Shown piece by piece: positions 31,030 through 32,684 of a stretch of 64,000 bases of DNA. The DNA comes from Nostoc sp. UHCC 0702 (GTDB taxonomy: Bacteria > Cyanobacteriota > Cyanobacteriia > Cyanobacteriales > Nostocaceae), in contig CP071065.1 in the NCBI GenBank assembly GCA_017164015.1, positions 7,221,501-7,285,500 on the forward strand, read 5' to 3'. Under the pieces are notes generated by a model. That model was not told the origin of the DNA. It ran no database searches and was given only the letters and a program-made list of their open reading frames with translations. Numbering within the stretch: position 1 is the first letter of the stretch; every line of letters starts with the position of its first letter. A program made the translations under genes and the position numbers.

Positions 31030-32001
31030 CTAATATCGCCAGTCTTCTAACTGTGTCACTAGAAAATAGCGCACGTGGTCAACGAAAGAAGAACCCCATT
31101 TGTGAGTCCCATGTCCCATCCCAGGTACGACATAACAAGCACCATCGCCAAAGCTTTTAGCACAATTTTGGGCATCTCTGATGCTGACAATGGGGTCGTT
31201 AGCACCGACTAAGAAGCGGACTCGACGCGGAGGCTTCACCCGTTCAATATAAGTCATTGGGTTGCAAGCGCAACTATGGTTGTCAGGGTATTTAAGATTA
31301 TTGACTAACTGTAAAACCTTAACTAAAGGTTTCATCTCTGGTCTGACTCGCTCTAAGATTACTTCTGCTAGTCCGCCCAAGGGTGAAGCTGCTAATTCTG
31401 GTAAAATCGAGTATCCCCAGCTTTTAGCAAAAGACTGGAGATTAGCATGACCAATTGTTCCCAGTAGCCGTTCTCCAAGACCATCAGCACTAAAGGCATA
31501 GGCGGCTTGTAAAACTCCCATACTGACTCCAAACAATGCCAAGCGACTATCGCTGATGCCGTAGCGTTCATAGCAGAAGTTACGTACTCTAGAGATGTCA
31601 ACTGCAATCTGGCGAAAGATTTGCAGGAGTAGCTTGGTATCAAAGCAGACACCCAGATCAAATAATGGCTTAATTTCATTTTCCACTACAGCAGTGAAGC
31701 TACGTACTAGGCTACGCTCACCGGACAAGGGTGTATCGAACAAAGCTACAGCTATGCCCATCTGTGTCAAAGTTGGCACTATGAAAGCGTTCCAGCCATA
31801 AGGGGCACACATACCTTGTAAACCAATCACCAGAGGTGTATGCTGTACAGGTCGATTCTGTGGTAAAAAGACAGCAACAGGAAAGCCACTTAATCGCTCA
31901 TCAATATCAGCTAGCCCAGTATAAGGGAAAGGCTCGTGAAACCAGTAGCGATCGCCATTCACACCTGCAAAATTAATTACATCTGGGCCGTATATAGGCA
32001 T
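31030..32001 (-). CDS. Alpha/beta hydrolase
   Basis: 323 residues. The nucleophile elbow is LALFGVSMGVLQAAYA (G-x-S-x-G, Ser about 175), the acid is probably Asp in VGANDPIVS and the base is His in GMGHGTHKWG. A lid-like helical insert lies between residues 185 and 255. No signal peptide. Substrate is unknown; no pathway partner nearby. Stand-alone gene, stop 30 bp from the right of an EamA-associated repeat. Confidence 0.75.
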   Translation of the reverse strand: MPIYGPDVINFAGVNGDRYWFHEPFPYTGLADIDERLSGFPVAVFLPQNRPVQHTPLVIGLQGMCAPYGWNAFIVPTLTQMGIAVALFDTPLSGERSLVRSFTAVVENEIKPLFDLGVCFDTKLLLQIFRQIAVDISRVRNFCYERYGISDSRLALFGVSMGVLQAAYAFSADGLGERLLGTIGHANLQSFAKSWGYSILPELAASPLGGLAEVILERVRPEMKPLVKVLQLVNNLKYPDNHSCACNPMTYIERVKPPRRVRFLVGANDPIVSIRDAQNCAKSFGDGACYVVPGMGHGTHKWGSSFVDHVRYFLVTQLEDWRY

Positions 32002-32038: not shown

Positions 32039-32227
32039 TTAAGTTAATTCTGACAGACTAGTATCTTTTTTGCCTAAATTCCAAAAAAGAATTTGTTCGC
32101 GTAATTTATGGCTGTGTTGGCGAATTGCGATCGCTATTCCAAAACCCTTGAAATGTGGTAACGTCTCACCCCAGAAATTGTGGTTTATCCCGCTTCTGTC
32201 ACTTTCTGAGAGGGCAATTATCGTCAA
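32039..32227 (-). CDS. Unassigned short ORF near the Cas12k relic
   Basis: 62 codons, MTIIALSESDRSGI then HFKGFGIAIAIRQHSHKLRE and a tail KKDTSLSELT. The composition looks protein-like and the last part has a helical, basic character, but I do not recognise it. It may be the C-terminal remnant of a larger gene lost with the transposon, or chance. No clear ribosome binding site. Confidence 0.25.
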   Translation of the reverse strand: MTIIALSESDRSGINHNFWGETLPHFKGFGIAIAIRQHSHKLREQILFWNLGKKDTSLSELT

Positions 32228-32244
32228 GCTTTACCAGTCAATCA

Positions 32245-32595
32245 AGACAAGCTATCCTATTACAAGAATTTGGTGCAAGTATTTGTTATTAGAAAAAATA
32301 AGCGCGATCGCTCAAACCCACAAAGCTAGCACTATAGTCTTGCCCAAGCTGGAAGATATGCGGTTCGTCCATTAGAGAACCAACGCCGGACAGTTGAAAG
32401 TGAGCCAGAGCAAATCCGAGCGATCGCCTCATGATTGACAACAACATAAATGGTATCGTCAAAGAACTATGTCATTTGAAAACTGACCCGCGCTTCATCG
32501 GTCAGCCAGCACGGTTTTACACAAGTGCGAAAACATTTATTATCCCACCAACGCCAAATCGCTCAAACGCTTGCTGCACCTAATCAATTTAGTCA
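32245..32595 (+). pseudogene. Decayed Cas12k (type V-K CRISPR-associated transposon) fragments
   Basis: Three frames carry Cas12k-like pieces. Piece A: LQEFGASI, then LLLEKISAIAQTHKAS and TIVLPKLEDMR (the RuvC-region LPKLGDMR motif), then VESEPEQIRAIA, about 32245-32430. Piece B: from 32431, IVKELCHLKTDPRFIGQPAR then FYTSA (the N-terminal KTDPRFxGQPxRxY motif of Cas12k), followed in another frame by LLSHQRQIAQTLAAPNQF (the LSHxRxxAQ segment before RuvC). Stops and frame changes separate the pieces, and about 400-450 central residues are missing. A tRNA gene and a CAST-like end follow directly. Comparison is with Cas12k sequence recalled from memory. Confidence 0.72.
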
Positions 32596-32602
32596 CTGTA
32601 CA
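32586..32602 (-). other. Candidate terminal sequence of a type V-K transposon
   Basis: On the minus strand: TGTACAGTGACTAAATT. Type V-K CAST ends begin TGTACAGTGAC, as I recall for the Scytonema element. It sits 9 bp from the 3-prime end of tRNA-Val. The opposite end was not found. Confidence 0.45.
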
Positions 32603-32611
32603 GTATAAAAT

Positions 32612-32684
<73 letters not shown>

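Follow-up and report, generated by a model that had tools for sequence, protein, structure and literature searches.

Next to the tRNA-Val(GAC) gene, a CRISPR-associated transposon (CAST) locus of type V-K, heavily decayed and reduced to approximately 300 bp, occupies positions 32304 to 32602 of the window, the 64,000-nucleotide stretch of DNA analyzed here (G000:C1:7221501-7285500), which belongs to the single 8.59-Mb chromosome of a Nostocaceae-like cyanobacterium (G000). This scar is intergenic, between the tRNA gene and a predicted gene for a 323-residue protein with no Pfam match (31030 to 32001, minus strand). It contains three fragments of cas12k, none of them a working gene, together with a single piece of a small HTH cargo gene, all fused by deletions. 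We consider it most likely (probability of about 0.85) that the scar represents two stacked V-K CASTs of different Cas12k lineages, both of which have decayed. The locus is now inert.

Read from the distal side toward the tRNA gene, the order is a dispersed repeat, cas12k fragment A, the HTH piece, cas12k fragments N and C, the transposon tip, 8 bp, and the tRNA. Fragment A (32304 to 32362, plus strand; ...IAQTHKASTIVLPKLEDMR) stems from the C-terminal part of Cas12k and corresponds to positions 524 to 550 of the NF038191 model. The HTH fragment (32366 to 32440, minus strand; ...NHEAIARICSGSLSTVRRWFSNGR) is antisense to cas12k, as it is in the intact element; it is 92% identical to a sequence of G004 and 88% identical to its counterpart in a CAST of the same genome (L018:16251-16325), a cargo gene adjoining tniQ. 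Fragment N (32440 to 32530, plus strand; GIVKELCHLKTDPRFIGQPARFYTSA; NF038191 positions 53 to 83) is joined to fragment C (32530 to 32590, plus strand; LLSHQRQIAQTLAAPNQF) by an internal deletion whose junction is directly observed, the missing stretch representing approximately 1.2 kb of the own1 gene. Fragment C is 95% identical over 57 bp to L045 and 92% identical to L046. The exact motif of a V-K CAST tip, cas12k side, follows (GTCACTGTACA, 32592 to 32602, plus strand), with about four more end bases kept beyond it, for a total of approximately 15 bp of transposon end. The tRNA-Val(GAC) gene (32611 to 32684, minus strand; ARAGORN; Rfam RF00005, 75.5 bits), which is present in a single copy in the genome, is the homing target and points at the element. 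A preliminary description of this locus had placed the tRNA 17 bp further on, and the true gap is 8 bp; both the transposon tip and the HTH piece had been overlooked.

The junctions within the scar are sharp, with little or no common sequence, except for the distal one between the repeat and fragment A, where GCGATCGCT is shared. The repeat (32183 to 32312, plus strand) is a dispersed Nostocaceae intergenic sequence and not part of a CAST, with two further copies in the same genome and many in relatives. It is cut off at a HIP1 site, GCGATCGC, the start point of fragment A. The FGAS sequence (32269 to 32280), initially taken for a Cas12k landmark, falls within this repeat and has to be discarded as such. 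Similarly, the 101-residue ORF at 32070 to 32375 results from the chance joining of the repeat to a cas12k scrap. Copies of the repeat in other Nostocaceae reach approximately 160 bp, and a second dispersed intergenic repeat is present in the window at 32089 to 32180.

The Cas12k origin of the three fragments is supported by several lines of evidence. Three-frame translation placed LKTDPRFIGQPARFYTSA (N-terminal part), LSHQRQIAQTLAAPNQF (C-terminal half) and IVLPKLEDMR (C-terminal part) in three different frames, separated by stops, as initially noted, and the translated pieces LKTDPRFIGQPARFYTSA, LLSHQRQIAQTLAAPNQF and STIVLPKLEDMR likewise lie in three separate frames. V_Cas12k (NF038191) was the sole NCBIfam family matched, with E values of 2.2e-5 for the N piece and 1e-4 for the IVLPKLEDMR piece, and a Pfam scan of the scar pieces gave no match. 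These two pieces were the only sub-cutoff Cas12k matches in a six-frame search of the whole 8.59-Mb genome. At the DNA level, the three fragments are 84 to 95% identical to intact cas12k genes, including genes in complete CASTs. Searches with the region from 32245 to 32602 gave a best blastn score of 109 bits, compared with at most 38 in 300 shuffles, and the Cas12k tblastn comparison that had been proposed as a check scored 53, compared with at most 28 in 300 shuffles. Given the common ancestry of Cas12k and TnpB (PMC11406308), we considered whether the pieces might be remains of TnpB or of another Cas12 nuclease of the IS605/IS607 type. The preliminary description had named a better match to TnpB, or no match at all, as evidence against its reading, and neither was found: no TnpB-like sequence scored above Cas12k, V_Cas12k being the only family matched. 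Together with the 84 to 95% identity to cas12k DNA and the presence of a V-K tip, this leaves such an origin with a negligible probability, and we rejected it.

The three fragments do not belong to the same type of cas12k. Fragment A shares 93% identity with a G002 relic and 90% with the intact cas12k gene of G001, both of which are located at tRNA-Val, and at most approximately 80% with the L045/own1 type, although with a length of 59 bp its assignment rests on about nine differences. Conversely, fragment N is 78 to 87% identical to the L045/own1 type (84 to 87% to own1 and L045, with 87% to L045) versus approximately 67% to G001, and in the same comparison fragment C is 82 to 92% identical to the L045/own1 type (92% to L045) versus 66% to G001. 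Fragment A is also out of order, as the CAST layout would put it between fragment C and the tip. In contrast, the succession of HTH piece, N, C and tip has the order and orientation found in the intact CAST at tRNA-Ala in the same genome, with the distance from HTH piece to tip reduced from approximately 15.5 kb to 0.24 kb. The combination of misplaced fragments and two cas12k lineages is thus most readily explained by the stacking of two elements. A single V-K CAST whose fragments were rearranged, or whose cas12k gene was a chimera of two lineages, would fit the facts that all pieces are strand consistent and contained within 300 bp, and recombination between cas12k genes could happen. However, it requires both that the 3′ part of cas12k moved, on the same strand, to a place upstream of the cargo gene and that the gene was chimeric. 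Among the 22 other cas12k sequences compared, there is none that resembles both A and N/C closely, which makes a single element unlikely. Therefore, the initial view of the region as the scar of a past insertion stands with respect to its V-K CAST nature but not with respect to the number of elements.

We infer the following insertion order and deletion history for two stacked elements. A V-K CAST of the G001/G002 type would first have inserted downstream of tRNA-Val(GAC), presumably using Cas12k and an anchor crRNA directed against the tRNA. A second CAST with an own1/L045-like Cas12k would then have landed on the tRNA side of the first element, next to the tRNA, generating a head-to-tail stack; this would be possible because insertion leaves the guide's target in the tRNA intact. 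Both elements would afterwards have been eroded by one deletion after another at very short homologies, leaving the cas12k end of element A, the cargo scrap, two cas12k scraps and the tip of element B, next to the tRNA. The tip probably persists because deletions cannot extend into the only tRNA-Val(GAC) gene.

No tnsB, tnsC or tniQ gene adjoins the scar, as judged from a tnsB search and from the ORFs, whereas all three are present in the elements found elsewhere in this genome, where the preliminary description had suggested looking for them, and in that of G001. The transposase genes are thus gone, as expected of a relic, and the scar is not a functional CAST. Neither a CRISPR repeat nor a tracrRNA was detected at the scar, the only Rfam match being the tRNA, and we found no match to an anchor spacer upstream of the tRNA of the window and no distal transposon end at the scar.

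The suggested comparison with related strains showed the syntenic tRNA-Val of G001, a member of the same genus, to harbor an intact V-K CAST. This element comprises a distal end (TGTACAGTGAC), tnsB, tnsC (split into two reading frames), a gene for a MerR (CvkR-like) regulator, cas12k and an 18-nucleotide (nt) anchor spacer, AGAGCGCTACGTTGACAT, that matches tRNA-Val beside a GTT PAM. In the window, the corresponding protospacer, AGAGCGCTACGTTGACAT, lies inside the tRNA (32646 to 32663, minus strand) and matches this spacer at 18 of 18 positions, with the GTT PAM at 32664 to 32666 (minus strand). The PAM edge and the tip are 61 bp apart in the window, compared with 57 bp in G001, which puts the surviving tip at the position to which the guide RNA of the G001 element would direct it. 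Homing of V-K CASTs has been described to involve a 17-nt anchor spacer, a GTN PAM located 46 to 82 nt from the transposon end and a tRNA pointing at the cas12k-side end (PMC9938897). The window shows such a PAM and protospacer in the tRNA and a terminal TGTACA end on the cas12k side. Together, the cas12k homology, the terminal sequence, the PAM distance and the syntenic CAST of G001 bear out the proposal of a V-K CAST relic beside a tRNA. Because the window's own elements have lost their anchor spacers, it is from the sister species that we infer that they, too, would have homed to tRNA-Val by an anchor guide. An older cas12k scrap (G001:C1:185067-185177) is located just outside the distal end of the intact G001 element. 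The upstream flank of the scar is not syntenic with G001, the matching genes being approximately 45 kb away and inverted, and a hydrolase-like gene tried as an upstream marker proved to be rare among relatives.

Of 218 genomes of the family, 44 contain an exact tip followed within 2 to 14 bp by the 3′ end of tRNA-Val, and a reversed-pattern control gave none. Nine of these 44 also harbor cas12k no more than 5 kb away from the tip: the gene is full length in G001 and G168, complete except for one stop in G156, at a contig edge in G196, and a relic in G000, G002, G016, G124 and G240. The remaining 35 yielded no cas12k in this interval, although some contigs stop nearby. The retention of an exact tip in so many genomes, mostly without cas12k nearby, raises the question of whether the scar might be preserved for a functional reason, with the residual end or the chimeric ORF shielding the tRNA site from re-insertion or regulating it; target immunity seems to exist in V-K CASTs (PMC11406308). 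Nevertheless, several tips carry mutations, stacks of two and three elements occur, and the approximately 15 bp of end left in the window fall below the usual array of binding sites, while the closeness to an indispensable tRNA explains the retention. We thus regard a retained function as very improbable, and none is apparent for the relic itself.

A spacer identical to the tRNA-Val anchor was found together with a V-K tip at five other tRNA-Val loci, L084 (G003), L092 (G067), L093 (G182), L102 (G159) and L108 (G195), and those inspected contain CRISPR-like repeats. No cas12k was present within 1.5 kb at any of the five, nor anywhere in the genomes of G067 and G182 at an E value of 0.001. At L102 and L108, near-palindromes of 51 bp in which two V-K tips face each other (TGTACAGTGACTAATTATTTGTC...ACAAATAATTAGTCACTGTACA) adjoin the CRISPR array, at approximately −687 to −637 and −485 to −435 relative to tRNA-Val, respectively. 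They may be either a miniature element or what is left of a vanished element whose ends have fused.

The same tRNA gene appears to be used by another family of Tn7-like elements. Several relatives carry a second Tn7-like element that has trimmed the V-K end to about 22 bp, and a hairpin-bearing element end (TTGCCGTTGCGGCAA) abuts a V-K tip of 22 to 24 bp approximately 30 nt from tRNA-Val (loci L083, L085, L089, L094, L095, L097, L099, L101 and L106). In G140 (L117), genes for an 898-residue TnsAB-like protein and for TnsC-like and TniQ/TnsD-like proteins, so named from their size, their order and a weak similarity to TnsB, adjoin the site beside the hairpin end, with the junction approximately 29 nt from the tRNA. 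This arrangement is reminiscent of the CAST I-B2/I-D class, with its TnsAB-like fusion and TnsD-like tRNA selector, and the insertion distance of approximately 29 to 32 nt in these other Nostocaceae resembles the 30 to 33 nt of CyCAST (PMC10293859). Unlike the V-K relic, these I-B2/I-D-like elements cut into V-K tips in relatives and form no part of the scar in the window.

A living counterpart of the proposed stack exists in the same genome. Three V-K CASTs or remnants thereof with divergent Cas12k proteins are arranged head to tail at tRNA-Ala(CGC) (G000:C1:3973704-4009000; L018-L019), with cas12k sequences, whole or fragmentary, at 3974816, 3994735 and 4007450 on one strand and three separate anchor spacers of 14 to 17 nt, each matching that tRNA. 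A 274-residue open frame in this region (G000:C1:4007450-4007956; L019:16423-17247) combines an N-terminal start that looks DUF262-like by eye with the C-terminal third of Cas12k. Elsewhere in the chromosome, a V-K-like tip, AATTTGTCACTGTACA, is found at G000:C1:3812396-3812411 (L121), approximately 40 bp from the apparent 3′ exon of an intron-split tRNA-Leu that was read by eye, with no ARAGORN call; no cas12k is present within 1.5 kb of that tip.

V-K CASTs, their tRNA attachment sites, anchor spacers and degenerate cas12k genes have already been published (PMC9938897, PMC11406308). The scar shares with the ShCAST/AnCAST class (Cas12k, TnsB, TnsC, TniQ) its Cas12k sequence, a TGTACA tip with GTCAC, a tRNA that points at the cas12k-side end and a GTN PAM in that tRNA 46 to 82 nt from the end (PMC9938897), but at approximately 300 bp it lacks any working gene, guide or distal end. 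It also resembles the degenerate loci of Ziemann et al. 2023, in which decayed cas12k is found near CAST parts and tRNA genes in cyanobacteria (PMC9938897). Unlike those, it is much shorter, having collapsed to the tip, and it mixes two Cas12k lineages, which is the new detail; stacking of V-K CASTs was not found in the searched text of that study.

The scar represents a natural test of the precision and repeatability of V-K CAST homing, as elements in many species have independently come to lie within a few bases of this one tRNA. The stacks of divergent elements, living at tRNA-Ala and dead at tRNA-Val, suggest that target immunity does not extend from one Cas12k lineage to another. If true, such a limitation would be relevant to users of CASTs who make repeated insertions. 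More tentatively, tRNA-Val(GAC) in Nostocaceae might be a layered record of repeated invasions by various RNA-guided and probably also protein-guided families of Tn7-like elements, in which immunity would act within a lineage only, so that unrelated elements stack, and leftover tips may shape later landings.
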